Shown here: positions 24,497-64,000 of the stretch, piece by piece
Layout: every line of letters starts with the position of its first letter
Position numbering within the stretch: the stretch's first letter is position 1
Assembly (NCBI RefSeq): GCF_035594125.1
Contig: NC_087190.1
Span: 6,668,501-6,732,500 of the forward strand
Origin: Scylla paramamosain
Lineage: Eukaryota; Arthropoda; Malacostraca; Decapoda; Portunidae
DNA: 64,000 nucleotides
Direction: 5' to 3'
Translations under genes and position numbers: made by a program
Notes under the pieces: model-generated
Told to the model about the DNA's origin: nothing
What the model saw: only the letters and a program-made list of their open reading frames with translations
Database searches by the model: none

Positions 24497-24499
<3 letters not shown>

Positions 24500-25833: not shown

Positions 25834-25879
25834 GTCATTCACGGCCAAGTTGCGCTCAGACAAAGATGAGCAGGAAGGT

Positions 25880-26069: not shown

Positions 26070-26150
<81 letters not shown>

Positions 26151-34100: not shown

Positions 34101-37100
34101 AACACTGAATAGAGACGCTTTTGGCAATGTTGTTTTGTTTTCCCATATATGGTGCTTTCCATGCTTTTTAGCGCTTTGGTGCCCGGCACGCTCATAAATA
34201 CTAAAAAGAAATGTTTCTGGAAATGTCATTTCGTTTTACTTTAGAGGGGACTCTGCATACATTTTGGGCTTTGGGTACCTAACAAGGTGAAAAACTCTCA
34301 AAATACGTTGTTCTGTTTCTCTATATAGAGTGTTATTTATATCTTTTATCATTTTGGTACCTAAGAAGCTCAAAAACAATCGTAATACACGTTTCTCTTA
34401 ATGTTTTTCGTTTCTCCAAATAGGTTCTTTCCATGGATTTTGGTGTTTTTTTTTTTTTTTTGCTTAAGCTTAAAATACTCAAAACACTTTTTTTTTCCTT
34501 TTAATTTTATTGTTTTATTCATAAATGGCGTTTTGCATGCGTTTTTGCGTGTTTGTAAATAATTAGTGCAGAGACTAAAAAGACATTTTTCGAAACGTTA
34601 TTTGATTTTTACATAGAGGGTGTCTTTCATGCTTTTTAACGTTTTGGTACCAATCACGATCATAAACACTCAAAAACATATTTCTGGAAATGTTTTCTTT
34701 CCCCATATCGGGTGCTTTGCATGCATTTTGGCCTTTTGGCATCTTTTTTTGCTTATGATCTTTTCTATATATACCGTGTTTTTTTATGCGTTTTAGCGTT
34801 TTGGCACGTAAGAAGCTCAAAAACACTCATAATACACGTTTGTCGCAATGTCCTTTTCATCCATATAAGGTACATGGCGTTCTTGTATGTAAGAAGCTGT
34901 AAAACACTCAAAATATTTGTTTTAGTAGGTTATTTTTTTCCTTGTAAAGAGTATTTTCCATGCGTTTTAGCGTTCTGGTTCGTAAGTAGCGCAAAAACAG
35001 TTGAAAGACACGATTTTGATGATGATGTTTTGTTTTCGCATATAGTGTGTTTTCCTTATTTTTAGCATTTTATTTCCTATCACGCTCATAAACACTAAAG
35101 ACACGTTTCGGCAAATGTCGTTTCTTTTCCCAATATGGATTGTTTTGTATGCATTTTGGCATTTGGTTATCTGACAATATGAAAAAGACTCAAAACACAT
35201 GTTTTTATAATGTTCTTTTTCTCCAAATAGAGTTATTAAATTGTTTTTTGCGTTTTTGTTACATAAAGAGATAAAAAAAAACACGTTTATCTCATTGTCT
35301 TTTCGTTTTCCCATATAGAGAACTTTGCATGCATTTTGGCGTTTTTCTATGTAACAAGCTCAACACCTTCCCACAGGCACCTTCGCTTAGGGGGATCCTA
35401 AGGAGGGATTGGAGTGATAGGACAAGATAAAGATATGAGATTGTGATCGGAGCCCAACGGAGAAGAAAGGGTGACAGCATAAGCAAAAGAATCAAATAAA
35501 ATAAAATAAAATAAAATAAAATAAAATAAAAATAAAAATATGAATTTGCGTTTCTTGTAATGTCATTTCCTTTCCACACATAAGAGCCTTTGCAAGCATT
35601 TTGACGTTTTGATATCTAAAAATGTGAAAGACACTCAAAATGCACGTTTTTGGTAATGATCTGTTACTCCAAATAGAATACTATTAACGTGTTTTTTTTT
35701 GCATTTTGGTACCTAAGAAGCTCGAAAACATTAATAATACACGTATCTCGTAATGTCTTTTCGTTTCCCCATGTAGGCATGCATGCATTTATGTGTTTTC
35801 TACGTTACAAGCTAGAAAACACTCAAAATACATATATTTGTTAATGTCTTTTGGATTCTCCTTAAAGCGAGTTATGCATGCGTTTTATGTGTTTTGCAAA
35901 GCTTTTTCGCGATTTGGTACCTAAGAAGATTAAAAACACTCTTAATACACTTTTCTCGTAAATTTTCTTTAGTTTTCCAATATAGGATATTTTACATGCA
36001 TGTTGGTGTTTTTGCACGTTACAAATTCAAAAACACTCAAAATACTTGTTTTTTGTAATGTTATTCTGCTTCTCCATTAAGGGTGTTTTGCATGCGCTTA
36101 AGCGTTTTGGTACGTAACTAGCTTAAAAATAATAGAAAGAGACGTTTTTGGTAATGTTGTTTTGTTTTCCCATACAGGTTACCTTCAATGTTTTTCATAA
36201 TTTTAGTGGCTAACACGCCAATAAACACTCGAAGGACATGGTTATTGAAATATCGTTTCGTTTCACCATAGCTGGTGCTTTGCATGCATTTTGCTGTATT
36301 GGTACTAACAGTGTGAAAAACATTCAAATCACAGATGTTGTTTTGTTTCTCCATATACAATGCTATTCATGCGTTTTACCGTTTTTGTAGCTGAGAAACT
36401 CTAAAACACTGAAAATTCGCCTGTCGTGATATTCTTGTTTCCCCATATCGTATACTTTCCATACATTTTGGTGGTTATGAACGTAACAAGTTGAAAAACT
36501 CTCAAAATACACGTTTTAGGAAAATTTATTCTTGTTTCTGTATAAAAGATGTTTTACATGCGTTTTAGAGTTTTGGTACGTAAATAACTAAAAAAAAAAA
36601 AGCACTCAAAAGACACGTTTTTGATAACTATTTTTCCCCATATAGTGTCCTTTTCATGCTTTTATTTTTTTTTTTTACGATTTAATTCCTAACACGCCCA
36701 CAGAGACTCAAAAGACATGTTTCTGGAAATGTGGTTTCGTTTCAAAATACACGCTTTAAAAGATACTAAAAAGGCATGTTTCTGGATATGGGATAATGTT
36801 CTTTCGTTACCCCACATAGGGTATTTTCCATGCATTTTGCCATTTATTTGCGTAACAAGAATAAAATCTCTCAAAATACTTCTCTTTGATAATTTTATTC
36901 TTGCTCCATAAAAAGTGTTTTTGCATGCACTGTAGGGTTTGGTACGTAAGAAACTCAAAACACTCAAACGACACGTTTTTCGTAATGTTTGATTTTTCCC
37001 ATATTGTGTTTTGGTGCCTAAGATGCTCATAAACATTCAAAACACAAGCTTTTGGAAATGATCGTTTCTGAGTAAAAGTTCCCTTACATGCATTTAGGCA

Positions 37101-37350
37101 TTTTGGTACCTAGCAATAAAAAAAAAAAAAAAAGAAAAGAAAAAAAAATCAATATACACGTTTATGGTAATGTTGTTCCGTCCCTCCATACAGAGTGCTA
37201 GGTTTTTGCGTTTTGGTACCTAAGAAGCTCAAAAACATTTATGATAAATGTTTCTTATAATGTCTTTTCGTTATTCCATGCAGGGTACTTTGAATGGATT
37301 TTGGCGTTTTTGTACCTAACAGTGTGAACAACACTCAAAATACACATTTG
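31181..37350 (+). repeat. 96-bp satellite array, plus orientation
   Basis: About 60 further monomers, more diverged, with several homopolymer A/T expansions (for example 37,110-37,135). Spot comparison shows 35,760-37,350 mirrored by 62,760-64,000. Interrupted by a small LINE-A-derived insert at 35,372-35,535. Confidence 0.9.
35372..35535 (+). mobile_element. LINE-A-derived micro-insert with (AAAAT)n tail
   Basis: About 118 bp matching the plus (antisense) strand of LINE-A at 9,510-9,625, for example GGATTGGAGTGATAGGACAA and GGGTGACAGCATAAGC, followed directly by (AAAAT)n. An A-rich tail on the antisense strand of the LINE is unexpected. A small internal GGGGGATCCTAAGGA rearrangement lies near its start. 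Confidence 0.8.
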
Positions 37351-37386
37351 TTCTTGTTCTCTCTGCGGTGTTGGTGGTGAGAATGA

Positions 37387-37390
<4 letters not shown>
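37351..37390 (-). mobile_element. Penelope-like leader stub left of LINE-D
   Basis: TTCTTGTTCTCTCTGCGGTG and the following GTGGTGAGAATGAAGTT mirror 62,722-62,760. This is the piece of the Penelope-like terminal region separated from the rest (48,890-49,172) by the LINE-D insertion. It includes one copy of the TGAAGTT target duplication (37,384-37,390). Confidence 0.8.
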
Positions 37391-37420
<30 letters not shown>

Positions 37421-37572
37421 CAAATAGAGAGGGTTAGGATCGTAGTTGGAAGATAAAAGAGAGAAAGTGAAAATAGTAGGAGAAAGAAAGTTGGTGGCCT
37501 GCCCACCTTGGTGTGTTGTTAGTAAGTGTTAAATGTTTTGTGTTTGGTGGGTGTTGGGGTGCTTGTATATAT

Positions 37573-38171
37573 TGTTACGTGTGAGCATACACTGAACTCT
37601 AGGGGATGGACCATGAAGGGGTGTTGCTCACACTAACAATGGAAGGGTTAAAAGAAAAGAGAAAAGGAGACATTTTAACTGCTATTTAATATCTTAAAGT
37701 TAAATTAAGTAACAATACAAAATTGAAGATTATTTAAGTAAGTAAAAGTAAGTAACAAGGAGTGGCAATCTGAACTGGACTGAATAACTTAAAAGACTGG
37801 TTCAGTTAATAACTTAAGCCAAGTTAGTAAATGCATATATATACAAATTACAAAAATAAACACCTTTACATATACATAATAGAAAATAAATATAAATGTG
37901 TTTGTGTGTGTGTGTGTGGGTGTGTAACACTGGTGTAACTCTTACCACCGCTCTCGAGTGTATATGAGGCTCCCAGCGTATGCCAAGGCGACCTCAGAGC
38001 TGTAGCGACCCTTGGAGGAGACTGAAGCTCGATGGAACTCCACCCCTTGTTATCGGCTTGGTAGCCTGCTAGAGGTCACGTATCCAGTATGCCTCAAGCT
38101 ATACACGTGGCAGCGCCACGAGTTGAGAGGCAGGCACCTGGTTCCGTGGTAGAGTAGTCACGTGTGTGACA
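37573..38171 (-). repeat. 3' LTR (599 bp)
   Basis: TGTTACGTGT...GTGTGTGACA as written on plus. Compared by eye with the other LTR: substitutions at about 37,588 (A for G) and about 37,688 (C for T), a 7-bp and a 6-bp length difference, and a shorter (TG)n. Such closeness indicates a recent insertion. Confidence 0.95.
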
Positions 38172-39690
38172 TTCCCCCCTTCTTAGGATGACGCAGAAGG
38201 AATGACTCTGCGTCATTAGAGAAGTGAGGTGGTTCCTGTCCCGTGAAGGTTGATTCCACCAGAACGTGTGTAGTCTGGGGCCCGGTAGATGGTTCTTCTG
38301 GCAGTGCTCGGCCCTCGGCTGCCTCCATCGACCGGTTCACAAGGCACGACTGCATCCCCGGCAACAGGATCCTAGGGTCCTCAGGGTCGCGACAGGTAGT
38401 GATGCTAGGCGTAGTGGGAAGGCGAGACAAAGTGTCAGCAAGGCAGTTGTCCAGTCCCTTAATATGGTGCATTTCAATGTGGTAAGGCTGGAGCTGTAGA
38501 GACCACCGTAGCAGACGTTGGTTAGTGAAGCGGTTCCTGTTGAGAAAAGTCAAAGGGTTGTGGTCAGTGTAGATTTGGAGTGGCTGGGTGTTGGACTGAA
38601 GATAGTACTCAAATTTCTTGATGGCAGAGATAATGGCTAAAAGTTCTTTCTCGATAGTGCTGTAATTCTTCTGATGGATGTTGAACTTCTCGGAGTGGTA
38701 GGCGACTGGGTGAAAGATTCCGTCAGATTCTTGCAGGAGGGCGGCACCCGAAGCGTGATCACTGGCGTCAGTATGTATGATGAAGGGTTTACTGAAGTCG
38801 GCCGCACGCAAAACCGGTTCCCGAGCAAGCAAGTTCTTAAGTTGATTGAAGGCATGTTGGCAGGCAGGGGTCCATTCGTACGCCACATTCCCACTAGTTA
38901 GTCTAGTAAGTGGCCCAGCTGCGTCTGCGAAGTATGGACAGAAACGCCGGTAGAACCCCGCCATGCCCAGGAAGCGGCGGAGCTCGCGTCGAGTAGTGGG
39001 AGTTGGGTACTTCAGTACTGCGTCGACGTTAGCGGTCTTGGGCCGGACGGAGCCTTGTCCAATCTGATGTCCTAGGTAGGAGACGGTGGCAGCTCCGAAC
39101 GTAGATTTCGCCAGCTTCACGGTGAGGTTCGCTTCCTGCAGACGGCTGAGCACATTCTGGATCTGGTACAGGTGGTCATCCCAGTCATGTGAAAAAATAA
39201 GAATATCATCTAAGTAAACCAGCACTCCTTTTAATCCCTGCATTACCTTGTTCATTGCCCTCTGGAAAGTAGCGGGGCAATTCCTCATGCCAAATGGGGC
39301 TACTACATACTGGAAAAGTCCAAAAGGGGTGATGAAGGCAGAGACTATCTGAGCTCTTTCAGTAAGGGCTATTTGATAATACCCTTTTAATAGGTCCAGC
39401 TTAGTAACAAATTTGGCTTGACCTACTTCATCTATCAGGTCGTCTACCCGAGGCAGAGGATAGGCGTCAGGAATGGTGACGGCGTTGACCCGTCGGTAAT
39501 CCGTGCAGAATCGCAGTTGTCCGTCCTCCTTGGGTACTAGGAGGCAGGGTGATGCCCATGGGGAGCTGCTGGGTATAGCCAAGCCCTGCTCTAATAAGTA
39601 CTGGACCTCCTTCTGCATCTGTTCTCGTTTCCGGGGGTTGACTCTGTAGGGAGACTGCTTGATAGGGAAGGTCCCTGGAAGCAGGAAGCA
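38158..39690 (-). pseudogene. pol 3' part: reverse transcriptase and RNase H
   Basis: Frame 39,618-38,158, extending upstream to about 39,690. The reverse transcriptase shows FCTDYRRVNAVTIPDAYPLP, KLDLLKGYYQIALTE, FGMRNCPATFQRAMN and VLVYLDDILIFSHD (YLDD about residue 134 of the visible frame). RNase H follows with IIHTDASDHASGAALLQ, TIEKELLAIISAIKKFEYYL and IYTDHNPLTFLN (Asp, Glu, Asp present). It ends shortly after the 3' LTR begins. It is out of frame with the upstream gag-protease-integrase by an indel that looks like a 7-bp tandem duplication (GGAAGCAGGAAG region, 39,677-39,688). A programmed shift is less likely because the shift lies inside the conserved start of the reverse transcriptase domain. 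Confidence 0.9.
38172..38184 (-). promoter_or_regulatory. polypurine tract
   Basis: On minus AAGAAGGGGGGAA directly precedes TGTCACAC of the 3' LTR, the expected plus-strand primer site. Confidence 0.85.
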
Positions 39691-42600
39691 CCTTCACATC
39701 ATGGCGGAGGACATTACAGATTTTAGGATGGTCACCGAACACGTCATACTGAGAGATCAATCTTGAGATATCCAGTGCTCGAGAGGATGAAAGATGACGG
39801 AGCTGACCATCTAAGTGTTGGATAATGTAGGTGTTGTTTTGCGTGTCCTTGGGATGTATGGTGTTTGTGTCAATCTCAGTGGTAATACATTTATCATACA
39901 TCAATGAACACACAGAGGCAGGTTTTAACTCTGAGTCAGCCTCCTGGGGTTCAATGATACCACAGGAAGCTACTCTAGGGGTTGGTTGGGCGCCAGTCAC
40001 AGGGGTTCTACATTTATACATTTTTAGGAGATTAACGTGTATTAACTGTGTTGCCTTTCGGCGGTCTGGAGTGTTTATGATGTAGTTGTTATCTCCTACC
40101 TTTTCCACTACCTCATAGGGACCATGATACTTTACTTGTAATGGGTGTTTAGGTGTGGGTATGAATGCAAGGACTTGATCACCTCTATCAAATACTCTAA
40201 CTCTGGCCTTCTGATCAAAGTGTTTCTTCATGGTGTTTTGAGATTTGTGTAAGTTGTTATCAGCAAAGGTGCGAACTTTAGTGAGTGTGGCTTTAAGGTT
40301 GTTCAAGTATTTAGTTACAGAGACAAGTTTGTGGGTAGTGGAATCTAACAATTTGTCTTTAATAATCCTTAATGGTCCCCTCACTTTCCTACCGAACAGG
40401 AGCTCGAATGGGGAAACTCCTGTACTCTCGTTAGGTGCTTCCCTGATGGCAAAAAGCATGTAGGGGAGTGCGTCATCCCATTCGCTCTCCTGCTCTTGAC
40501 AGAATTTGCGTAGAAGTCCTTTCAGTGTCTGATGAAATCTTTCTAGAGCGCCCTGTGACTGCGGGTGATAGGCAGAAGACAAGGTTTGTGCGATAACAAG
40601 CTCTTTTAACACCTCTGTGAAGAGAACGCTAGTGAAATTAGTTCCTCGGTCACTCTGAATGGTTTGAGGAATCCCGAAGGTAGTAAAGAAGTGGTTTAGC
40701 TTGGACACAATAGTGTTGGTGTTGATTTTACGTATCGGAAAGGCTCCGGGATACCTAGTTGTTGGGTCAAGAATTGTTAGGATATACTCATTACCTTTCT
40801 TGGTTTTTGGAAGTGGCCCCACAATGTCAATTATTATTTTATGAAATGGTTCTGAGGGAACAGCAATAGGTTGGAGAGGATAGGGTGGGATAGTTACGTT
40901 AGGTTTACCCGCTATCTGGCAGAGATGACAAGTACTGACGTAATTCTTCACATCCTCCCTTAATCCTGGCCAGTAAAAGTCAGCGAGGATCTTCTCACAT
41001 GTCTTCTTGATGCCCAAGTGACCAGCAAAACTTTCATGAGCGATCTCTAGTATGGAATGTCTGAGTATGGTAGGCACAACCACTTGGTGGGCTTCTGCCC
41101 AAGCAGCAGCATCTGGGACCTTAGAGGGCCGGAACACTCTCATGAGAACTCCATCCTGTTTGTAAAAGGCAGGGTAATGAGTAATTTGATCTGGAGGGAT
41201 AACCTTGTCATGAAATTGAGTCAAAGTAGTGTCTTCCTGTTGAGCCTCAGTGAGAAGTTTTTCAGAAAATATTTGATTGAGTTCAAGTGGGGATGGGCTC
41301 CTCTTTGGAAGCGAGAAAGACTGATCAGATTTCCTTGCTTGTGCACGAGTAGTAACATAAACAGGGAATAAGCCTGGTTGTTGCTCTTCTAACTGTACAG
41401 TGGGGTTATCCATCAGCATTGTGTCACTAATTACCAAAGGGGGAGTCACCTTACTGCCAGCTAGGTCATTAGCGAGGAGTAGTTGAGCATTAGGGATGGG
41501 TAAGGCTGGTTCTTCACTAACTCCTATTATCACTTCACCTCTTACTAGTGGGCTATCAAGATGTACTTTAGCTAATGCAATGGGGAAGGGGTCATGGAAG
41601 TCTTTTAAATATACCTTTTCACCTGTGTAACACTGTTCAATACCAGGGACTGCTGACTTCAGCACTAGGGACTGAGCTGAACAGGTGTCTCTGACAATCT
41701 TAACTGGGTGATCCTTGTTATCAATGCTGATGGTGCCTACAGACCTGAAAGGCTCAAATAAGTCTTTAGGTACAGGGAAGGAGGGAAGAGCTTGTATGGA
41801 AGCAACTGGCTTGGTAGGATATGTTTGAGCTACCTTGCACTTGGGATTAGGACAGTTCTTTATGAGGTGCCCCGGCTGTTTACAAAAAGCACAAAATAGA
41901 GGTGGTCGAGTACTACTGCCGGTCATTTTACCAACCCCTGAGTTACCTGAGTTTATCTTACCACTAGGAGTCTCGGTCAGCTTGTCTGAGGTTGCCTTGC
42001 GATTCACCAGGGAGAAAAGGTCCGCTAACTGAGCGGCTTTGAGAAGATCTGTTTCTTCTTTGTTGGTGATGTGTAACATTACTGAGTAAGGGAGCTTACG
42101 CATGAACTCTTCTAAGGCTAAGAGATTTACTAATTCGTCGTACGTGGTTATCGCGGCTGACTTAAGCCAACGCTTGAGAGCCCTCAGTTTCTCTGAGGCA
42201 AACTCTAGATAGGTTTGTTGCGGAGTTTTGAACATTTTTCGAAAAGACTGACGGTATCCTTCTGTGGTAATGGAGTACGCCGCTAGGATGCCCTGTTTGA
42301 CACAGTCGTAATCCGTGTTGTTTTCGAGGCCGTTCAAAATAGTTAAAGCCTTTTGGCTGAGTTTGGGTTTAAGAAGCCAAGGCCAGTCTTCTCGGGGCAG
42401 TTCAAAATGTACTGCTGTGTCCTCGAACTGTCCAAAGAAAGTTTCGGGGTCTTTGTCAGAGAACTGAGGGAGTAGTGAGAGATATTTAGTTAACTTTTGT
42501 TTGAGGTCAGCTGTGGTGGTTGATCGAGATTTTAATTGTGCGAGTTGGGTCTCGTGGATTCTTTCTTTTTCTCTCTCCTCTCTTTCTTTTTCTCTCTCCT

Positions 42601-43027
42601 CTCTTTCTTTTTCCTCCTTTTCTTTTACATATGCCAGATCTCTTTCCGCTTTTTCTTTTTGAAAAGCTAGTTCTTCTCGCCTTAGTTCTCTCTCTTCTCT
42701 CTCTCTTTCTCTTGCTGCCTCTCTCTCTTCTCTCTCTCTTTCTCTTGCTGCCATTAGTTTCAGCTTTTCGAGTTCGAGCATTAAACTGGCGTCGTGCTGT
42801 GAAGTAGCACTAGTGGCTTCACCTCCAAGGTGAACTAGGATTTGAGTTCGGAGTTCTTCCTTCCGAATGTCAGACGGATATGAGAGATCAAACTGTCGGG
42901 CTATGTACTTTAAATCATTCTTTGTCACTTTGGCAGTTTGTAGCTCCGCCACAGAAGGATTACTGCAAAATGCGTCCAAGTTTAACTCATGCGACATGAT
43001 TAATGAGCGTGAGGTCAATTGAACCAA
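39467..43027 (-). CDS. gag-protease-integrase polyprotein
   Basis: 1,186 codons; an internal MSHELNLDAF start is equally possible. Residues about 90-170: charged coiled coil (EREREEREAA repeats). About 175-330: capsid-like. Zinc knuckle CAFCKQPGHLIKNC near 380. Protease-like IVRDTCSAQSLVL near 445, where the usual DTG is DTC. Integrase zinc part H-x4-H (HESFAGH near 665) with CHLC. DDE core IIIDIVGPLPKTKK, IQSDRGTNFTS and GALERFHQTLKG (about 730-830). GPY/F module VKYHGPYEVVEKV near 970. The last 60-70 residues are out-of-frame sequence over the reverse transcriptase start. Its place before the reverse transcriptase is the unusual point. Confidence 0.9.
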   Translation of the reverse strand: MVQLTSRSLIMSHELNLDAFCSNPSVAELQTAKVTKNDLKYIARQFDLSYPSDIRKEELRTQILVHLGGEATSATSQHDASLMLELEKLKLMAAREREREEREAAREREREERELRREELAFQKEKAERDLAYVKEKEEKEREEREKEREEREKERIHETQLAQLKSRSTTTADLKQKLTKYLSLLPQFSDKDPETFFGQFEDTAVHFELPREDWPWLLKPKLSQKALTILNGLENNTDYDCVKQGILAAYSITTEGYRQSFRKMFKTPQQTYLEFASEKLRALKRWLKSAAITTYDELVNLLALEEFMRKLPYSVMLHITNKEETDLLKAAQLADLFSLVNRKATSDKLTETPSGKINSGNSGVGKMTGSSTRPPLFCAFCKQPGHLIKNCPNPKCKVAQTYPTKPVASIQALPSFPVPKDLFEPFRSVGTISIDNKDHPVKIVRDTCSAQSLVLKSAVPGIEQCYTGEKVYLKDFHDPFPIALAKVHLDSPLVRGEVIIGVSEEPALPIPNAQLLLANDLAGSKVTPPLVISDTMLMDNPTVQLEEQQPGLFPVYVTTRAQARKSDQSFSLPKRSPSPLELNQIFSEKLLTEAQQEDTTLTQFHDKVIPPDQITHYPAFYKQDGVLMRVFRPSKVPDAAAWAEAHQVVVPTILRHSILEIAHESFAGHLGIKKTCEKILADFYWPGLREDVKNYVSTCHLCQIAGKPNVTIPPYPLQPIAVPSEPFHKIIIDIVGPLPKTKKGNEYILTILDPTTRYPGAFPIRKINTNTIVSKLNHFFTTFGIPQTIQSDRGTNFTSVLFTEVLKELVIAQTLSSAYHPQSQGALERFHQTLKGLLRKFCQEQESEWDDALPYMLFAIREAPNESTGVSPFELLFGRKVRGPLRIIKDKLLDSTTHKLVSVTKYLNNLKATLTKVRTFADNNLHKSQNTMKKHFDQKARVRVFDRGDQVLAFIPTPKHPLQVKYHGPYEVVEKVGDNNYIINTPDRRKATQLIHVNLLKMYKCRTPVTGAQPTPRVASCGIIEPQEADSELKPASVCSLMYDKCITTEIDTNTIHPKDTQNNTYIIQHLDGQLRHLSSSRALDISRLISQYDVFGDHPKICNVLRHDVKVLPASRDLPYQAVSLQSQPPETRTDAEGGPVLIRAGLGYTQQLPMGITLPPSTQGGRTTAILHGLPTGQRRHHS

Positions 43028-43602
43028 ATCAAGTGTGTCTGAGCCCTACACTGAAACCTGATCCAAGACCTAGGTTCGCCACCACGAGTCGGAAGGACCC
43101 GCGTGAACGACAGGTTCGAAACCACGAGTCGGAGGGAAATGAGTTGACCCGCGTGCATCGACAGAGACTCGTTTTTGAGTCTAGTTGAGTCAAGGTTAGC
43201 AACGCCTTAACTGTGCTTCTGAAGAGGCAACGAATCGAAGAAGTGTAGCGATAATCACTGCCCCAAAATGACTACCATAGAACTAACACTTAAGCACTTG
43301 TAATGGCTTGCCGTATTCGCTGCTTTCAAGCAAAGAGTGGAACGCAAGTTCCCAAGTTTTAAGGAGTCTCGGAGTTCGGGGTGAAGGTCACTACTAGGGG
43401 GAATCGAACCGACACTAAAGCAACACTGAGGAAATCAATTGTTAGGTTTTTAACGCTTTTATGAATAGACGCCGGTACCTCGCGTACTTTTAAAGCGGAA
43501 AAACGCAAAAATTCACCAACAAAGAAATAAGCACAACTTCATATACACTCGAGAGCAGGAAAGGAACTAGTGTAGTTATATGTATGTGTAAACATGTGTA
43601 AT
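43028..43602 (-). other. LTR-element 5' untranslated leader
   Basis: Non-coding on minus between the primer site and gag; contains a short direct repeat of CACGAGTCGGA (43,084 and 43,122 on plus). No other feature seen. Confidence 0.6.
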
Positions 43603-43620
43603 ATCCCGGACGGGCCCCCA
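43603..43620 (-). promoter_or_regulatory. primer-binding site, tRNA-Pro type
   Basis: On minus TGGGGGCCCGTCCGGGAT begins 2 nt after the 5' LTR. It differs by one base from the well-known tRNA-Pro primer site TGGGGGCTCGTCCGGGAT. The last 18 nt of host tRNA-Pro would prime here. Confidence 0.85.
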
Positions 43621-43622
43621 AT

Positions 43623-44258
43623 TGTTACGTGTGAGCATACGCTGAACTCTAGGGGATGGACCATGAAGGGGTGTTGCTCACACTAACAATGGAAGGGTTA
43701 AAAGAAAAGAGAAAAGGAGACATTTTAACTGTTATTTAATATCTTAAAGTTAACCCTTAAATTAAGTAACAATACAAAATTGAAGATTATTTAAGTAAGT
43801 AAAAGTAAGTAACAAGGAGTGGCAATCTGAACTGGACTGAATAACTTAAAAGACTGGTTCAGTTAATAACTTAAGCCAAGTTAGTAAATGCATATATATA
43901 TATATACAAATTACAAAAATAAACACCTTTACATATACATAATAGAAAATAAATATAAATGTGTTTGTGTGTGTGTGTGTGTGTGTTTATGTGTGTGTGT
44001 GTGTGGGTGTGTAACACTGGTGTAACTCTTACCACCGCTCTCGAGTGTATATGAGGCTCCCAGCGTATGCCAAGGCGACCTCAGAGCTGTAGCGACCCTT
44101 GGAGGAGACTGAAGCTCGATGGAACTCCACCCCTTGTTATCGGCTTGGTAGCCTGCTAGAGGTCACGTATCCAGTATGCCTCAAGCTATACACGTGGCAG
44201 CGCCACGAGTTGAGAGGCAGGCACCTGGTTCCGTGGTAGAGTAGTCACGTGTGTGACA
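43623..44258 (-). repeat. 5' LTR (636 bp)
   Basis: Same ends as the other LTR. Longer by about 37 bp: an extra AACCCTT-type 7 bp near 43,752, TA dinucleotides near 43,895 and an expanded (TG)n at 43,961-44,006. Confidence 0.95.
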
Positions 44259-44304
44259 TTATGTTGTTTATCTAGCTAGCTAATTTGTCTTAGTGACTTT
44301 TTGT

Positions 44305-51835: not shown

Positions 51836-52893
51836 GTAATGTGAAGCTTACAAAGCATATTTTGCTGTGCCAGTTGGGAACCAAGATAAGACCAGGGCAC
51901 CTCATTTTACTTGTGAGGATTGTGAGAGAACATTAGAAGGCAAAATAGCTGTTAGTTTTTCAAGAGTAATATTCAATAAAAAATTAAGAAAAATTAAAAC
52001 ATAAGTTAAACAAACTTATACTGCTGTTCTTTTACAAGGTGGTATAGAGGGGAAAAGAGAACCATGAAATTTGCTATACCTAGAATATAGCGTGAACCTA
52101 CTGATCACTCAAGTGACCGCTTTTTTCTGCATGGTGGATCCTTCCAAACGCCGATCTGGGAAAAATGCACCTGTCTGTTAATCCAGACATTCTATCCATT
52201 TCATTGCACCAGTACCACATAGTGCTGATCTGCTGATTCTCCAGAAAGAAATCAACTATCAAAAGAAAGCAGCAAGTCAGAAGATGAGCCAAACAGAGAG
52301 AAAGACTGTGAATTCACAGATACAGTTGTAGTTGGAAGGAATCCTTACTACCCAAATCAAAGAGACCTCATTGATCTCATCAGAGATCTTGGTTTGACAA
52401 AGTCAAATGGTGAGCTTTTGATTTCAAGGCTGAAGGAATGGGACTTACTTGATGAAAGTGTGCAAGTGACCAGCCAAAGAAAACGTACTTGAAGGTCCAT
52501 ATCCTAGATTGTCATCTCGACAGCTTCAAGAGAATAAGGGAGCATATTCAGAGGAACAAGGGGAGTCCCTCCACCAAGATATAACGAACTTTGAACAGAG
52601 ATATCAGGGATCTTTCAATGAAAAACATGATGGGAGACTACATTTAGGGGCTCATACATGAAAGTTATTTGTTGTATTCAAGCAAATCAAGAAGAAAAAA
52701 AAGTTTTAAAATTAATTTTGGAGTCATTTGAATTATTTTTCTTTCCAAAAATGGTAAAAATGGTGAAATTTAGCTATTTTCAGGCAAAAATCATTCTAAA
52801 AGCCACAAAAGCTGTTTGACAGGAATAATTGACATTTTCTATTGTTTTGAAATGAAAAGAGTTAGAAAATAGACAAAAATCGTGTTAGAGACT
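51836..52893 (+). pseudogene. relic of a widespread arthropod orphan gene, left arm
   Basis: Readable pieces in order: AYKAYFAVPVGNQDKTRAPH and FTCEDCERTLEG; an AT-rich insert of about 95 bp ending TTTTACAAG; GWYRGEKRTMKFAIPRI with a TAG, REPTDHSSD, FFCMVDPSKRRSGKNAPVC; later DLIRDLGLTKSNGELLISRL and KEWDLLDESVQVTSQRKR. Then abruptly HILDCHLDSFKRI, GAYSEEQGESLHQDI and FEQRYQGSFNE. I recognise these as segments of a multi-copy arthropod protein family of unknown function. The long central region between QRKR and HILD is missing. The AT-rich insert looks like an unspliced intron. Stops and shifts make it dead. The mirror copy shares the deletion. Confidence 0.75.
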
Positions 52894-55800
52894 GATAATA
52901 CACATTTCTGGTAATACCTTTTCGTTTCCCCATATCGGGTACTTTGCATATATTTTGATGTTTTGGTACTTCACACGCTTAAAATCAATGAAATATTACT
53001 TTTCTAATAATGTCGTTTCATTTTAATATATAGGATGGTTTTCATGCATTTTGGCGTTTTGGTACCTAACAAGTTTAAAAAGAGTCAAATTACATTGGTC
53101 ATGATGTACTGTTTCTTCATACCTTACAAGGTACCTAACAAGGTAAACAAAACAAAATGAAAATACACGTTTTTAGTAATGTTCTGTTTCTCCAGTTAGA
53201 GTGCTATTCACGCGTTTTAACGTTTTAGCTCAAAACACACACCTTTCTGGTAATATCGTTTCTTTTCCCCCAAATAACGTACTTACGTGGATTTTGGCGT
53301 TTTGCTATCTCACACGGTCAAAAACATTCAAATTACATTATTTTGGTAATGTAATTATGAATCTTTATATAGGGTGTTTTGCAAGTATTTCTGCGTGTTG
53401 GTACGTAAAAATCCAGGACATAACATGGCGAAAAAAAAAAAACATTCAAAATAAATGTTTTCGGTAAGGGTAAAAACAATGAAATTAAACATTTTGGTAT
53501 GGTTATTATGTTTCTTAATATAGGTCGTTTTGTATGCATTTTATTAATTTTTGTATGTAAGAAGAACAAATGACACGTGTTTGGCACTGTTATTTTGTTT
53601 TCCAATAAATGGTGTTTTCCATGTTTTTTAGCGTCTTTGTGCATATAACACTCAAAAACACTTAAAAAACACGATTCTATTAATGTCGTTTCATTTCTTT
53701 ACATTTGATAGTTTTCGTGCATTTGTTGGTTTTTGGTACCTAACAATCTTAAAAACAGACAAAATTACACGTTTCTGGTCATGCTCTTCTGTTTCTTCAT
53801 AAAGGTGCTTTGCATGCTTCTTGGCGTTTTGGAATCTACCAAGGTGAAAAATACTTACCATACACATTCATCGTAATGTTCTGTTTCTCCATATAGAGTG
53901 CTATTAGAACATTTTAGCGTTTTGGTAGCTAAGAAGCTAGAAAACAATTACAAAACACGTTTCTGGTAAAAATCTTTTTGTTTCTTCATATACGGTATTT
54001 TGTATGAATTTTGGTGTTTGGTTTCCTCACACTCAAATTATATGTTTTTGGGAATATTATTAATTTCTTCATATACGGTGTTTTTCATGTATTTTTTTTT
54101 TTTTTTTTTACGTATTGGCACATAAGAGTCTGAATTCCCTCTATAGGGCGGCTTCCATGGAATTTGGCGTTTCAGCTTAAAAACAGTCATAATACAAGTT
54201 TTAGTGATGTTGAGTTATTTCATAATGTGGGATTTCATGATTTTTTTGCGTTTGGTACCTAAAAAGGTAAAAAAATCAAATTAACGTTTTCGTTATTTAC
54301 ACGTGCTATTTATACATTTTAGCGGTTTAGTACGTAAAATCCTGGAAAACACTCCTAACACCAGTTTATGGTAATATCGTTTTGTTTCCCCATATAGAGT
54401 GCTTTCCATGCATTTTTGCGATTTGGTTCCTTACATCATCATAAACACTCAAATTACACCTTATTGGTAATGTTATGTTTCTTTATATAGGGTGTTTTGC
54501 ATACTTTTTATCGTTTTTCCAATGCTTTTCCAATGTCATTTCCATGCTTTTTAGCGTTTTGGTGCTGAAGATGCTTATAAACACTCAAAAGAACCGTTTC
54601 TTGAAATATTATTTTGGTTTTTAATATAATGTTTTCTGCATGCATGTTGGCATTATGGCACCTAACAATGTGAAATACACTCAAAATACACGTTTTAGGT
54701 AGTGTTATTCCGTTTCTCTATATAGAGTGCTCTTCATGCGTTCTAGAGTGTTGTTAACTAAGAAACTAAAAAGAAAAACACTCATAATACACGTTTCTCG
54801 TAATCTTTTCATTACCTCATATAGGGTTCTTTGCATGCACTTTGGTGTTTTTTTTTTTTTTTGCATAATCTTAGAAACACTCATAAATACTTGTTTTTGG
54901 TAATGTTCTGTTTATCTATATAAAGTGCTATTCATGCGTTCTAGTGTGTTATTACTTATAAAGCTCAAAAACTCATAATACACGTACGTTTCTTGTAATG
55001 TTTTTCGTTTCTACATATGGTAATGTTGTTCTGTTTTTCTATATAAAGTGCTATTTATGCGTTCTAGCGTGTTATTCCTTATGAAGCTCAAAACTCATAA
55101 TACACGTTTCTTGTAATGTTTTTCGTTTCTACATATAGAGTAATTTGTATGCTTTTTTTTGGCATTTTTCTACGTAACAAACTCAAAAACATTTAAAGTA
55201 CCTTTTTTTTATAATATAAGTTTCTACCTAAAAGGTGTTTTGCATGTGTTTTATCATTATGGTACAAAAAAAGCTGAAAAACACTCAAAAGATATATTTT
55301 TTTGTAATGTTTTTAATTCCCATACAGGGTGTTTTCCATGCTTTTCAGTGTTTTAGTTCCTTGTACATTTATAACCATTAAAAAGGCACGTTTCTGGAAA
55401 TCTCGTTTTCTTTCCCCAGATAGAGTGCTTTGCATGCCTTTTGGCGTTATGATAACTTACATCAAAAACATACGTGATAATGTTGTTCTGTTTCTGCACA
55501 TAGAGTGTTATTCATATATTTTAGCGTTTTGGCTCCAAAAAATATCAAAAACACTCAAAATTCACTTTTCATGTAATGTCTTTTTTTATTCTACATATAA
55601 CGTACTTTGTTTGCATAAACACTCAAAAGACACCGTCTTGGAAATGTCGTTTCTTTTCCCAAAAACACACAAAATACGCGTTTTTTTTTTTTGGTAGTTA
55701 TTCTTTTTCTTCATATAGAGTGTTATTAAAGTGTTTTCACGTTATTATATCTAAGACGCTCAAAAACATTTATAATGCAAGTTTTTTCGTAATGTTTTTT

Positions 55801-56464
55801 CCTTTCCCAAATATGGTGTCTTCCATGCATATTGGCGTTTTCTGCCTAACAAGCTCAGAACACTTGACATGCTTGTTTTTAGTAATAGTATTCTTTTCTC
55901 CAAGTTTTCCATGCGTTTCAGCGGTTTGGTGCGTAAGAACCTGAAAACACTCAGAAGACACGCTTTTTTTCACTATTACATAGGGTGCTTTCCATGCTTT
56001 TAAGTGTTTTAGTTCCTAATACGCATAAAACATTCAAAAGATATGTTCCTTATAATGTCATTTCGTTTTCTCATATAAGAGACTGCAGTCATTTTGGCGA
56101 GTCGGTATGTAACAGTGTGAAAACAATCAAAATACACGCTTTTTTTTTCGTTTTTCCATATAAAGTGTTTCTGACGCGTTTTTCTAGTTTTGGTACCTCA
56201 AACTCAAAAACACTCATAATACACGTTTTTTTTGTAATGTCTTTTCGTTTCACCATATACTGTACAATATAAAGTAAGGTTTTTCTACATATCAAGCTCA
56301 AAAACACTCAAAATACTTGTTTTTTGGTTAATTGAATATTTTCTCCATAAAGTGTTTTGCATGCGTTTTACCGTTTTGGTACGTAAGAAGTTCTAAAACA
56401 CTCAAAATACACGTTTTTCGTAATGTTTTGTATTCCATTTAGGATGACTTCCATGCTTTTTAGC
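52894..56464 (+). repeat. 96-bp satellite array, inner left arm and most of the spacer
   Basis: 52,967-54,512 is the inner left arm (same as 26,743-28,440). 54,513-56,464 is spacer, the mirror of about 30,830-28,880. A deletion of about 190 bp near 53,467 relative to 27,235-27,410 and to the right arm is visible. Confidence 0.9.
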
Positions 56465-58693
56465 GATGGAAAACACCCTATATAAAGAAAGAAAATAACT
56501 TTACCAACCGTGTTGAGATACCGTGTGAGATACCAAAACTCCAAAATGCATGTAAAGTATCCTATATGGATAAACGAAATGATATTACCAGAAACGTGTC
56601 CTATAAAAGTTTTTGAGATTGTTAGGTACCAAGACACTAAAATGTGCGTGTAGCACTCTATATTAAGAAACAGAACAACTTTACCAAAAACGTGTATTTT
56701 TAGTGTTTTCACCATATATCGAAATGCCAAAATGTATGTCAAGCACCCTATACAAAGAAATAGAGCATGACCAAAAAAAGTGTAATTTTACTGTTTTTAA
56801 GTTTATTAGGTACCAACACGTCAAAATGCTTGCAAATTTGGAAACGAAGACAAAATAACATTACCAAACACATTTCTTTTGAGGGTTTTTGAGATTCGTA
56901 CAAAAACGCTAAAAAGTATGCAAAACACCCTATATAAAGAAAAATAACATTACCAATAAGGTGTAATTTGAGTGTTTATGACGATATAAGGAACCAAAAC
57001 GCAAAAATGCATGCAAAGTACCCTATATGGGGAAACAAAACGATATTACCATAAACTGGTGTTAGGAATGTTTTCCAGGATTTTAGGTACCGCTAAAACG
57101 TGTAAACACCACATGTAAAAAACAAAATCGTTATTTTGAGTGTTTTTTTTTTTTTTTTTTTACCTTTTTAGGTACCAAACGCAAAAATTCATAAAATTTC
57201 CCATTATGAAATAACTCAACATCACCAAAACTTGTATTATGACTGTTTTTAAGCTAAAACGCCAAATTCCATGGAAGCCACCCTATAGAGGGAATTCAAA
57301 CCCTTATGTGCCAATACGGAAAAAAAAAAATACATGAAAAACACCGTATATGAAGAAATGAATAATATTCCCGAAAACATATAATTTGAGTGTGAGGAAC
57401 CCAAACACCAAAATTCATACAAAATATCCTATATGAAGAAACGAAGAGATTTTTACCAGAAACGTGCTTTGTAAGTGTTTTTGAGCTTCTTAGCTACCAA
57501 AACGCTAAAACGTTTTAATAGCACTCTATATGGAGAAACAGAACATTACGATGAATGTGTATGGTAAGTATTTTTCACCTTGGTAGATTCCAAAACGCCA
57601 AAATGCATGCAAAGCATCCTTATGAAGAAACAGAAGAACATGACCAGAAACGTGTAATTTTGTCTGTTTTTAAGATTGTTAGATACCAAAAACCAACAAA
57701 TGCACGCAAACTATCAAATATAAGGAAATGAAACGACATTAATAGAATCGTGTTTTTTGAGTGTTTTTGAGTGTTTTATGCACAAAGACGCTAAAAAACA
57801 TGCAAAACACCATATATTGGAAAACAAAATAACAGTGCCAAACACGTGTCATTTGTTCTTACAGACGAAAACTAATAACATGCATAGAAAACGACCAATA
57901 TTAAGAAACATAATAACCATACCAAAAAGTTTAATTTTTTTTTTTTTTTTCTATTACAGTGTGAGATACCAAAACGTCGAAATGCATGCAAATTACCCTA
58001 TATGGAGAAACGAAACGATATAACCAGAAACGTGTATTAAAAGTTTTCTTCAGCTTCTTAGATAAAAAAAAACTAAAACGTGTGAATAGCACCTGATATG
58101 GAGAAAACCAACAACCTTACCAAAAACATTTATTTAGAATGTTTTTTTTTTTTTTCGCTATGTTATGTCCTGGATTTTTACGTACCAACACGCAGAAATA
58201 CGTGCAAAACACACTATATAAAGATTCATAATAACATTACCAAAATAATGTAATTTGAATATTTTTGACTGTGTGAGGTACCAAAACACCAAAATCCACG
58301 TAAAGTACGTTATTTGCGGGAAAAGAAACGATATTACCAGAAAGGTGTGTGTTTAGAGCTAAAACGTTAAAACGCGTGCATAGCACTCTTAACTGGAGAA
58401 ACAGAACATTACCAAAAACGTGTATTTTCATTTTGTTTTGTTTACCTTGTTAGGTACCTTGTAAGGTATGAAGAAACAGAACACCATGACCAATGTAATT
58501 TGACTCTTTTTAAGCTTGTTAGGTAAAAAAACGCCAAAATGCATGAAAACCATCCTATATATTAAAATGAAACGACATTGTTAGAAAAGTAATTTTTCAT
58601 TCATTTTAAGCGTGTGAAGTACCAAAACATCAAAATACATGCAAAGTACCTGATATGGGGAAACGAAAAGGTATTAACAGAAATGTGTATTAT
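56465..58693 (-). repeat. 96-bp satellite array, spacer end and inner right arm
   Basis: Orientation flips at about 56,464 (TTTTTAGCGATGGAAAACACC). 56,905-58,693 mirrors 54,512-52,894. Confidence 0.9.
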
Positions 58694-59762
58694 CACTAAC
58701 ACGATTTTTGTCTTTATTTTCTAACTCTTTTCATTTCAAAACAATAGAAAATATCAATTATTCCTGTCAAACTTAGCTTTTGTGGCTTTTAGAATGATTT
58801 TCGTCCCAAAATAGCTAAATTTCACCATTTTTACCATTTTTGGAAAGAAAAAAAATTCAAATGACACCAAAATTAATTTTAAAACTTTTTTTTTCTTCTT
58901 GATTTGCTTGAATACAACAAATAACTTTCATGTATGAGCCCCTAAATGTAGTCTCCCATCATGTTTTTCATTGAAGGATCCCTGATATCTCTGTTCAAAG
59001 TTCGTTATATCTTGGTGGAGGGACTCCCCTTGTTCCTCTGAATATGCTCCCTTATTCTCTTGAAGCTGTCGAGATGACAATCTAGGATATGGACCTTCAA
59101 GTACGTTTTCTTTGGCTGGTCACTTGCACACTTTCATCAAGTAAGTCCCATTCCTTCAGCCTTGAAATCAAAAGCTCACCATTTGACTTTGTCAAACCAA
59201 GATCTCTGATGAGATCACTGAGGTCTCTTTGATTTGGGTAGTAAGGATTCCTTCCAACTACAACTGTATCTGTGAATTCACAGTCTTCCTCTCTGTTTGG
59301 CTCATCTTCTGACTTGCTGCTTTCTTTTGATAGTTGATTTCTTTCTGGAGGATCAGCATATCAGCACTATGTGGTACTGGTGCATTGGAATGGATAGAAT
59401 GTCTGGATTAACAGACAGGTGCATTTTTCCCAGATCGGCGTTTGGAAGGATCCACCATGCAGAAAAAAGCGGTCACTTGAGTGATCAGTAGGTTCACGCT
59501 ATATTCTAGGTATAGCAAATTTCATGGTTCTCTTTTCCCCTCTATACCACCTTGTAAAAGAACAGCAGTATAAGTTTGTTAAACTTATTTTTATTTTTTC
59601 TTAATTTTTTTATTGAATATTACTCTTGAAAAACTAACAGCTATTTTGCCTTCTAATGTTCTCTCACAATGCTCACAAGTAAAATGAGGTGCCCTGGTCT
59701 TGTCTTGGTTCCCAACTGGCACAGCAAAATATGCTTTGTAAGCTTCACATTACCTATGACAA
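58694..59762 (-). pseudogene. relic of the same orphan gene, right arm
   Basis: Mirror image of 51,836-52,893 with the same internal junction, the same AT-rich insert and the same TAG after IPRI. The common lesions show that both descend from one already dead copy. Small private differences exist, for example AGGATCAGCATATCAGCAC at 59,349. Confidence 0.78.
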
Positions 59763-62443
59763 CAAAAGAACAATATCACCAGAAACGTGTATTATGGCTT
59801 TTTAAAGATTGTTAGTTACCAGCATGCCAAAATGCATGGAAACCACCATATATAGGGAAACGAAACAATACCATAAACGTTTGTTTTCAGTATTTTTGAG
59901 CGTTTTATACACAGAGACGCTAAAAAGCATAGAAAGCACCCTATTTTGGAAAACAAAATAATATTTCCAAACAATTGCCATTTCATTGTTTTTGAGATTC
60001 TTACGTACAAAAACACAAAAATGCAGGCAAAACACCCTATATAAAGAAGCAATAATTATAACAAAAAAGTGTAATTTGAGCGTTCATAAAATCATGATGA
60101 ACCAAAATGCCAGAATTCATGTAAATTACCCCTATATGAGGAAACAAAACGATATCACTGGTAACGTTTCTTATAAGTGTTTTTGAACTTCGTTGCTACC
60201 AAAACGCTAAAACCAATCAATATGTAATAGCAGCATAAAATTATTTTTTACTGTTTCTATTTTGTTAAATAACAAAACGATAAAATGCAGACAAAGCACC
60301 TTATATGAAGATCACCAGAAATGTTTATTATGACTGCTTTTTAAGATTTTTAATTACCAAAACGCCAAATTGCATGATAACCAAACATTACCAAAAGCGT
60401 GTCTTTTTTTATGTACAAAGACGCTAAAAAATCATAGAAAGCACCCTATATTGAAAAATAAATAACATTACCAGACTGTTTTTCAGATTCTTATGTACTT
60501 AAACGCTAAAATGCTTAAAAAAAAACACCGTGTATGAAGAAAATATTAAAATCATAAAAGCCATATAATTTGAGGATTTTTGACCGAGTGAAATACCAAA
60601 AACGTCAAAATGCATGTAAAGTACTCTATATAAGGAAAAAGAAACAAAATTACCAGAAACGTGAATTATGAGTATTTTAAAGCTTCTTAATTACTAAAAA
60701 TGCTAAAACGTTTTAATAGAACTATATGTGGAGAAACAAAATAACATTACCAAAAATGTGTTTATTGTATTTTCACCTTATATGAAGATACAGTATGGCA
60801 TGATCAAAAACATGTATTATAACTGTTTTTAAACTTGTTAGGTAATAAAATACCAAAAAGCATGTAATTTTTTCTATATATGGAAACGAAACGACATTAA
60901 GAAAAACGTGTCTTTTTGTGGGTTTTGAAGCGTTTTATGCGCAAAGATACAAAAAGCCATAGAAAACACCATATAATGAAACATAGAATAACATTACTAA
61001 ACACGTGTCATTTGTGTGGTTTTGGGCTTATTACGTACTAAAGCGCTAAAATGCATCGAAAATACCCTATATAAAGAAACATAATAACATTGCCAAAAAT
61101 GTGTAATTTGAGTGTTTTTGACTATGACGTCAAAATGCATGGAAATTACCCAATAGGGTAAACGAAATGATATTACCATAGTACCTAATGAAAGAGCATT
61201 ACGAGAAACGTGTATTAAAAGTGTTTTTGAGCTTGTTAGGTACCAAAACACGAAAACGCGTTGAATAGCTCTCTATATGGAAAAACAGAACAGCATTATA
61301 AAAAAAAAAAACGTTTATTTTGAGTGTTTTTATATTGTTAGGTACCAAAACGGTAAAATGCATGCGAAGCACTCTACATAGGGAAATGAGGCGACATTAC
61401 CAAAAACGTGTCTTTTTAGTGTTTTTTGAGCGATTTATGCACCAAAACGCTAAAATGCACAAGTTCCATATTTTCGATACAAATCAACATCACCAAAAAG
61501 GTGTCTTTTGTGTTTTGAGCTTCTTACGTACCAAAACGCTAAGATTCATACAATTAAGAAGAAACATTAAGAAGAATCAGAATAACATTACCATTAAGAA
61601 GAAACAGAATAACATTACCAAAAAAATTGCATTTTGAGTGTTTTTAAGCTCGTTAGGTACAGAAACAGCAAAATCCATGCAATGTACCCTATATGGTGAA
61701 CATAACAATATTTCCAGAAACGTGTATTATGGATGTTATTGACCCTCTTAAGTAACAAAACGCTCAATAGCTCTCTACTCGTATATATAGAAAAAGAGCA
61801 ACACAACCATAAACGTGTGTTATGAGTGATATTCATATTATAATGTACGAAAATGCGTACATTCATGTAAAATAACCGATATTTAATAACGAAAAGACAT
61901 TAAGAGAAATGTGTGTTATGAGTGTTTTTGAGCTTCTTAGTGCCCAAAACGCAAAAACGCTTCAATAGCATTATATATGGAGAAAGGACAACATTACTAA
62001 AAATGTGTATTTGGGTGTTTTTTTCATTGTTAGGTACCAAACTGCCAAAATGCATGCAAAGTACCCTATATTGGGAAAAGAAATGATATTTCAAGAAACA
62101 TATCTTTGGAGTGTTTATAAGCATGTTATGCACCAAAACGGTAAAATGCATGGAAATCACCCTATATGGGAATACCAAGCAACATTACACAAAACGTATA
62201 TTTTGAGTGTTTCTAGCTTCTTACGTACTAAAACGCTAAAACGCATAGGAAACACTTTTTATGAAGAAAGAATAACATTACGAAAAACAAGTATTATGAG
62301 TATTTTTGAGTTTGTTATGTATAAAAAACGATAAAAAACGACAAATTGCATGGAAAGTACCCTATATAGGGTAACGAAAGAACATTAATAAAAATGGGTA
62401 TTATGAGTACTTTCGATCGTCTTACGTACCAAAACGCTAAGAC
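59763..62443 (-). repeat. 96-bp satellite array, outer right arm
   Basis: Minus-oriented monomers mirroring 49,173-51,835, up to the Penelope hairpin. Confidence 0.9.
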
Positions 62444-62482
62444 GCATCCATCGATTATTTCACAGAAATAATCGATGGATGC
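62444..62482. repeat. hairpin GCATCCATCGATTATTT/AAATAATCGATGGATGC, right
   Basis: 17-18-bp stem with a loop of about 4 nt at the truncated start of the Penelope fragment. The left half may be a fold-back copy of the element's first bases. Confidence 0.88.
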
Positions 62483-62696
62483 AACGATGGACGACGCCTA
62501 AGCATATTAGAAGCCCTCCACATAAAAGAAAATAATCTGAAGTTAAATACTCAGTCAGAAGACCTTCAAGCCCTACCAAACATGAAGAAATCAAGAAAGA
62601 AAAACGAAGCGGCAACCTCACCGAGCCACGCGACAAAGCAGCCAATAAGCGGCTCCGCCCATAGTGCGTAGCTCGTTCTGATCCCGTGCGGGCAGC

Positions 62697-62729
62697 ATAT
62701 AAGGCACGCAGAGGGCAGAGAACTTCATT
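62697..62729 (+). promoter_or_regulatory. TATA box and initiator of the Penelope-like promoter
   Basis: CATATAAGGC followed at normal spacing by TTCATTC, with a CCAAT box and a GC box 35-75 bp upstream. Would direct transcription into the satellite at 62,761 onward. Activity is not known. Confidence 0.5.
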
Positions 62730-62760
62730 CTCACCACCAACACCGCAGAGAGAACAAGAA

Positions 62761-64000
62761 CAAATGTGTATTTTGAGTGTTGTTCACACTGTTAGGTACA
62801 AAAACGCCAAAATCCATTCAAAGTACCCTGCATGGAATAACGAAAAGACATTATAAGAAACATTTATCATCAATGTTTTTGAGCTTCTTAGGTACCAAAA
62901 CGCAAAAAACCTAGCACTCTGTATGGAGAGACGGAACATTACCATAAACGTGTATATTGATTTTTTTCTTTTTTATTTTATTTATTTTTTTTATTGCTAG
63001 GTACCAAAATGCCTAAATGCATTTTTTAGTATCTTTTAAAGCGTGTATTTTGAGTCTCTATGGGCGTTTTAGGAACTAAAACGTTAAAAAAAGCATGAAA
63101 AGGACACTATATGGGGAAAAATAGTTATCAAAAACGTGTCTTGAGTTTTTTTTTTTTTTTGTTATTTACGTACCAAAACTCTAAAACGCATGCAAAACAT
63201 CTTTTATAGAGAAACAAGAATAAGTTTTCCTAAAACGTGTATTTTGAGAGTTTTTCAACTTGTTACGTTCATAACCACCAAAATGTATGGAAAGTATACG
63301 ATATGGGGAAACAAGAATATCACGACAGGCGAATTTTCAGTGCTTTAGAGTTTCTCAGCTACAAAAACGGTAAAACGCATGAATAGCATTGTATAAGAAG
63401 AAACAGAACAACATATGTGCTTTGAATGTTTTTCACACTGTTAGTACCAATACAGCAAAATGCATGCAAAGCACCCGCTATGGTGAAACGAAACGATATT
63501 TCAATAACCATGTCCTTCGAGTGTTTGTTTATTGGCGTGTTAGCCACTAAAATTATGAAAAACATTGAATGTAACCTGTATGGGAAAACAAAACAACATT
63601 ACCAAAAACGTCTCTTCCTATTATTTTTAAGCTAGTTACGTACCAAAACGCTTAAGCGCATGCAAAACACCCTTAATGGAGAAGCAGAATAACATTACAA
63701 AAAACAAGTATTTTGAGTGTTTTTGAATTTGTTACGTGCAAAAACACCAACATGCATGTAAAATATCTTATATGGAAAAACGAAAGAAAATTACGAGAAA
63801 CGTGTATTAAGAGTGTTTTCAATCTTCTTAGGTACCAAATCTCGAAAAAGCTTTGCAAAACGCATAAAACGCATGCAAAACTCGCTTTAAGGAGAATCCA
63901 AATGACATTAACAAATATATGTATTTTAAGTGTTTTCTAGCTTGTAACGTAGAAAAACACTTAAATGCATGCATGCCTACATGGGGAAACGTAAAGACAT
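62761..64000 (-). repeat. 96-bp satellite array continuing off the right edge
   Basis: Mirrors 37,350 back to about 35,760, for example AGCTTTGCAAAACGCATAAA at 63,848 against the same in reverse at 35,893-35,912. The array leaves the window. Confidence 0.88.

Follow-up and report, generated by a model that had tools for sequence, protein, structure and literature searches.

Mirrored 96-bp satellite DNA in Scylla paramamosain: a long inverted repeat and a third copy of its center

RESULTS

A long inverted repeat of satellite DNA

The window analyzed here is a 64,000-bp stretch of the genome of Scylla paramamosain (Decapoda, Portunidae; NCBI RefSeq assembly GCF_035594125.1, contig NC_087190.1, positions 6,668,501 to 6,732,500 of the forward strand), which has a GC content of 39.2%, contains no N, and was compared against itself by self-BLAST. 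Positions are counted from its first base. The window holds an array of 96-bp satellite DNA with the two arms of a long inverted repeat, the junctions at which the satellite changes orientation, a third copy of the center of the repeat, and later insertions in one arm, namely, a long interspersed nuclear element (LINE) and a long terminal repeat (LTR) retrotransposon. Satellite orientation was taken from a profile hidden Markov model (HMM) built from the window. Some of these features had been proposed in a preliminary description made from the sequence letters. The features of the array are as follows.

26,733-26,735, left border of the satellite array (first HMM match at 26,733; between-copy similarity from 26,735)
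26,735-31,183, minus strand, third copy c1 (reverse complement of 54,150-58,628, 93.2%)
31,184-31,185, junction J2, minus to plus (third copy only; block Y, 31,185-35,752, follows)
35,753-37,389, plus strand, outer left arm, 96-bp satellite (BLAST match to 36,717; alignment collinear as far as 37,389, with gaps of 34 and 315 bp; orientation from the HMM)
37,390-48,889, minus strand, LINE with nested LTR retrotransposon (left arm only; Pfam, LTRs, LINE relatives)
48,890-54,515, plus strand, inner left arm, consisting of a Penelope-like scrap, satellite, a nonsatellite relic, and satellite (BLAST, global alignment, HMM)
48,890-49,165, Penelope-like scrap (name taken from the preliminary description and assigned by eye)
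51,803-52,904, plus strand, nonsatellite relic of the left arm (mirrored at about 58,684-59,786 in the right arm)
54,150-54,515, plus strand, short inverted repeat c2L, inner terminus of the left arm, linking the structure into a long palindrome
54,516-56,466, plus strand, unmirrored satellite block T (HMM)
56,466, orientation junction J1, plus to minus (TTCCAT, 11-nt loop, ATGGAA; same junction at 28,881)
56,467-56,904, minus strand, unmirrored satellite block Q' (continuous with the right arm)
56,905-64,000, minus strand, right arm, consisting of satellite, relic, and Penelope-like scrap (BLAST, global alignment, HMM; cut by the window end)

Global alignment of the arms, with the insert at 37,390-48,889 excluded, showed that the remainder of 35,753-54,515 is collinear with the reverse complement of 56,905-64,000. 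Mismatches were counted over six named segments and amount to 273 in 6,836 compared columns, or 4.0% (43/1,228, 10/314, 102/2,601, 25/1,098, 67/1,235, and 26/360). The same correspondence was recovered by self-BLAST, which matched 48,890-53,469 to the reverse complement of 58,115-62,727 (94.2% including gaps) and 35,753-36,717 to that of 63,044-64,000 (94.6%). Within the window the left arm measures about 7.3 kb and the right arm, which is cut at the window end, about 7.1 kb. Gaps of at least 20 bp occur on both sides, the right arm lacking stretches of 34, 315, and 23 bp and the left arm stretches of 32 and 165 bp. Both alignments agree with the preliminary description of a single long inverted repeat of satellite with arms of at least 7 kb and a 2.4-kb spacer, and the near-constant coordinate sums reported there were measured at 111,584-111,617 over the longer BLAST match. 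An end of the left arm at 54,851, suggested by an 82.7% segment in the first BLAST, was rejected, since that segment had run on into background satellite; the actual end is at about 54,515. The background set comprised 302 reverse-complement BLAST matches within 26,733-64,000 (E ≤ 1e-10; aligned length of at least 300). The best 6 of the 302 belong to the inverted duplication or the third copy, and the median identity of the other 296, 66.6%, is the satellite background level.

The HMM found 263 monomer matches, all between 26,733 and 64,000, of which 247 were kept after overlapping weaker matches were dropped (154 on the plus strand and 93 on the minus strand). Monomers cover 85-92% of each of five array stretches. 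Only three orientation switches (28,881, plus to minus; 31,184, minus to plus; 56,466, plus to minus) were identified against 238 neighbor pairs in the same orientation, and all three fall within two copies of the same center. The spacer of the palindrome (54,516-56,904; 2,389 bp) is not mirrored beyond the satellite background, and it is itself satellite because monomers span block T and block Q' on the two sides of J1. The earlier account of this spacer was right on its size and its lack of a mirror image; to be added are that the spacer is satellite too and that the satellite flips orientation inside it at 56,466, away from the geometric center at about 55,710. In 42 of the 238 neighbor pairs, one of them at about 54,518 where block T begins, the monomer register is off by over 12 bp, and the proposal that the register breaks solely at joins was dropped on this count. 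Microhomology at the left border (26,735) was likewise dropped as a candidate, since the original continuation of the flank would be needed for comparison. Searches with the satellite patterns returned no exact match in viral contigs and none in prokaryote genome contigs, no Rfam family matched, our literature search found no paper on 96-bp satellite DNA in Brachyura, and none of five terms looked for occurs in the 2026 crayfish satellitome paper.

The relic carried by both arms has diverged less than the satellite around it (25/1,098 versus 212/5,064 mismatches between arms; P = 0.002), and its portion at 52,029-52,777 has just 9 mismatches. The paired arms therefore show the satellite and its nonsatellite passenger diverging at different rates, the relic changing about half as fast, which may reflect either constraint on the relic or faster change of the satellite. 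No Pfam family scored above the cutoff in the three pieces of 51,803-52,904 that were scanned; the name "orphan-gene relic" given to it in the preliminary description rests, like that of the Penelope-like scrap, on reading by eye.

The insert in the left arm

The insert at 37,390-48,889 is flanked by two copies of TGAAGTT, a 7-bp target duplication, and adjoins a run of 30 T at 37,389. The right arm has one TGAAGTT and an empty site near 62,724. Because the right arm keeps this empty site, the LINE and LTR insertions are later than the duplication. Pfam families identified in the insert include RVT_1 and Exo_endo_phos_2, both in the LINE frames, together with rve, RT_RNaseH, and SCAN, and 376 relatives of the LINE protein were found at E ≤ 0.001 among 7,698 candidates. 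The LTRs of the nested element (37,571-38,173 and 43,621-44,260) have 2 mismatches over 603 aligned bases, with a further 37 gap positions. The preliminary description had recognized an insert breaking the left arm and treated it as one element, "LINE-D"; it proved to be a LINE carrying a nested LTR retrotransposon. In the latter (38,158-43,027, minus strand), the domain order is opposite to that usual in Ty3/gypsy elements, with the integrase domains placed upstream of reverse transcriptase and RNase H. Gmr1-like elements have this order.

A third copy of the center

The preliminary description missed a third copy of the palindrome center, at 26,735-31,183. In this copy the inverted repeats around the center are just 0.38 kb long (28,079-28,444 and 30,802-31,184), are 91.1% identical, and lie 2.36 kb apart. 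The unmirrored center of the palindrome is bounded by exactly these 380-bp inverted repeats, which are 92-95% alike across their four copies. J1 (at 28,881 in the third copy) and the boundary at which block T meets the short repeat are present in both centers, whose J1-containing blocks differ at 79 of 2,330 positions. Past 31,184 the orientation flips at J2 and a different satellite stretch, block Y, follows. The flank at 26,735-27,234 is a direct copy of 52,960-53,468 (94.3%), so that the tandem copies are offset by 26.2 kb (14.7 kb once the insert is subtracted). Recombination between the members of the 4.45-kb inverted pair, 26,735-31,183 and 54,150-58,628, could flip the intervening segment.

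We also considered whether 28,079-31,184 is a transposon of the Foldback type with 380-bp terminal repeats. This candidate was rejected on two grounds: satellite monomer matches cross the ends at 28,079, 54,150, and 57,280, and no direct repeat that would represent a target duplication is shared by the sequences flanking the third-copy segment on its two sides.

Origin of the inverted duplication and order of events

We favor, at about an even chance of being right, an origin of the inverted duplication by fold-back or template switching at the short repeats, following close in time on a 14.7-kb tandem duplication. The starting point would have been an old 96-bp array with a tandem-duplicated 14.7-kb unit and two 0.38-kb inverted repeats 2.36 kb apart. 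A strand may have broken or stalled just past the second repeat and folded back so that the repeats paired, or the template may have switched there. Reverse copying of the remaining array would have followed, leaving the 2.4 kb that separates the repeats as an unmirrored loop, and the third copy at 26,735-31,183 would represent the retained unfolded arrangement. The arms would then have drifted independently and gained indels, the left arm alone acquiring the LINE and afterward the LTR retrotransposon. The layout, in which a direct flank is followed by a short repeat, an unmirrored kilobase-scale loop, the partner repeat, and an inverted flank, is that of fold-back inverted duplications. The fold-back reading is supported because the arms are collinear, because the center is bounded by the repeats of the third copy and because orientation switches are rare and confined to the two copies of that center. 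In yeast, inverted repeats 30 kb apart are described as still rearranging by fold-back in single-stranded DNA, which in the available text is suppressed solely by heterology above 25% (PMC10164571). On this reading the inverted duplication needs no selected function, and proneness to inversion and breakage would be among its likely by-products.

The relative age of the three copies was assessed from odd-one-out sites, at which one sequence differs from the other two, in the outer flank common to all three (1,160 columns without gaps). The third copy is the odd one out at 27 sites, the left arm at 25, and the right arm at 32, and all three differ at 4; by subregion the counts are 11/6/14 and 15/18/18 (third copy/left/right), and odd-one-out indels number 8, 6, and 5 in the same order. 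Because these counts are near equal, the arms are no more similar to each other than either is to the third copy, and homogenized arms were rejected on the same evidence. The pattern suggests that the duplications happened close together in time, and conversion or homogenization between the arms was not detected in it. The test favors neither an early-split third copy nor a third copy cut from a finished palindrome. The short repeat is more diverged between the arms than the satellite (26/360 versus 212/5,064; P = 0.011). Dating it as older than the palindrome from this difference was set aside as not decisive, since the third copy's own two repeats differ by just about 5%. Two changes, a short indel at 54,325 and a substitution at 54,352, are common to the left arm and the outer repeat of the third copy; both lie in the inner half of the short repeat, and the outer half has no shared site of this kind. 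The two shared changes may hint at a hybrid repeat produced by pairing of the two repeats.

Several of these observations weigh against the fold-back scenario as we have set it out. Had the third copy separated before the fold-back, it would be expected to stand apart from both arms in the flank, and the counts show no such excess. The short repeats look no older than the rest, with pairwise differences of 3.3-8.7% in both halves and the small difference within the third copy pointing the same way, and the signal for a hybrid repeat consists of two events, in a region where distances do not separate the cases. All three copies have a further register step, about 14-21 bp beyond the short repeat. 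Register slips are frequent in the array, and register alone is therefore no marker of joins. The link at 54,150-54,515 occurs once in the window, so a misjoin is possible there. Finally, the equal divergence of the three copies is compatible with more than one order of events, and an order in which the palindrome came first fits as well.

Under that last order, two tandem satellite units would have been joined head-to-head at J1, by breakage-fusion or U-type exchange, and 26,735-31,183 would be a later, truncated duplicate that gained block Y at J2. We regard this account as unlikely, if well short of negligible. It draws on two features found in both copies, J1 and the junction of block T with the short repeat, it is compatible with star-like divergence, and it also predicts the split of c1L and c2R versus c1R and c2L. 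It requires that the truncation landed 380 bp outside the center. It would also make the left arm the odd one out in the flank, where 25 sites versus 27 and 32 show no excess, a test that does not favor the fold-back scenario either.

The about equal divergence of all copies would also be expected if one complex replication event, by origin-dependent inverted-repeat amplification (ODIRA) or serial template switching, gave rise to the tandem and the inverted copies together, with block T as a templated insert between two switches. ODIRA uses short inverted repeats. It has been proposed, in the portions of two reports available, as the source of inverted triplications with palindromic junctions (PMC10766186; PMC4689423). 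Such an event should have left a second, outer inverted-repeat junction, whose expected place is past position 64,000, outside the window. As one of 42 such steps in the array, the register step where block T begins is a weak sign of a switch. We consider this explanation improbable.

An assembly misjoin at the 0.37-kb repeat, linking two truly inverted but separate array segments, or a chimeric read could account for a link seen once in the window at a repeat that is 92-95% alike in four copies. A chimeric read would yield nearly identical arms; the arms here differ by 4% plus indels, and one alone carries the LINE with its target duplication. J1, moreover, is present twice, in blocks that differ at the 79 positions given above. 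A misjoin or chimera is therefore quite improbable in our estimate, and the same observations disfavor the preliminary description's alternative of a fold-back error from one molecule.

Sequence next to the array

A second, apparently older inverted duplication lies beside the array, between 5,206-13,967 and 22,037-26,497, with LINE sequence separating its left-hand pieces. Its paired segments are as follows.

11,526-13,967 with 22,037-24,449, pair 1, 81.9%
6,108-6,494 with 24,498-24,902, pair 2, 93.1%
5,206-6,098 with 25,552-26,497, pair 3, 82.0%

A 25-bp minisatellite (GGAATGGCTGGGAGAGGAGTGGCTG) at 12,778-15,761 and 22,037-23,117 flips from plus to minus twice, at 13,063-13,118 and 22,829-22,857, and orientation flips in tandem repeats therefore recur in the window. 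The frames at 23,156-23,620 and 24,355-25,098, beside the array, resemble by eye a remnant of a BED-finger/hAT-type transposase, and neither contains a Pfam family.

DISCUSSION

We tentatively propose that the window holds one satellite segment in two states, unfolded and folded, and would thus be a fossil intermediate in the origin of a macro-dyad, the large-scale mirrored arrangement described in Tribolium satellite arrays. A template switch at J1 would make a short inverted repeat, which would then seed a fold-back of tens of kilobases, and such dyads would be general to satellite arrays rather than a Tribolium specialty. We think it doubtful that this full proposal is correct. If it is, the arms should run beyond 64,000 and mirror the array back to 26,735, which would amount to about 16 kb per arm without the insert. 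With junctions resolved to the base and a candidate unfolded paralogue at this locus, a mutational versus a selected origin of mirrored satellite DNA becomes testable.

The arms of sex-chromosome palindromes are nearly identical through gene conversion. The inverted repeat described here resembles these ampliconic palindromes in being long and having a small spacer; it differs in its 4% arm divergence and in showing no signal of homogenization. The parallel with sex chromosomes drawn in the preliminary description is thus not borne out, as either arm is no more distant from the third copy than from the other arm.

The described pattern nearest to the present one is that of the Tribolium macro-dyad symmetries, which are called documented exclusively in that genus by their authors, who propose a role in (peri)centromeric chromatin; their origin is not stated in the available text (PMC13081366, 2026). 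Outside that paper, our literature search met the term macro-dyad just in the reference list of another paper. As far as the same source describes them, the Tribolium arrays resemble the present locus in consisting of a short-unit satellite (about 110 bp there, 96 bp here) that flips orientation at abrupt, recurring inversion sites and in forming palindrome-like inverted subarrays of several kilobases (here plus up to 56,466 and minus over 56,466-64,000). They differ in being multimegabase, likely (peri)centromeric, and built of two intermingled satellites with highly conserved inversion sites (PMC13081366). The array in our window, in contrast, has one 96-bp family with old monomers (66.6% median identity) and three switches, two of which are copies of each other. 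Intermingling of two satellites was not found in the array, where this family covers 85-92% of the stretches and no other long array is listed, and because of this we liken the locus to a macro-dyad and do not class it as one.

Another structural parallel is offered by human fold-back duplications, which likewise consist of a direct copy, an unmirrored kilobase-scale spacer, and an inverted copy, with inverted sequences at the spacer edge (PMC3907307). In the portion of that study available, spacers of 766-70,466 bp (median, 3,428) are reported in all 21 sequenced junctions, some junctions sit in inverted Alu or LINE pairs, and 3 of the 21 have homologous LINE or short interspersed nuclear element repeats at their edges, one of them 296 bp of 90% identical Alus (PMC3907307). 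The human cases have a known reference state, in contrast to the array of S. paramamosain, where the event is old (4% divergence) and the unfolded state is inferred from a paralogue (PMC3907307 for the human cases).

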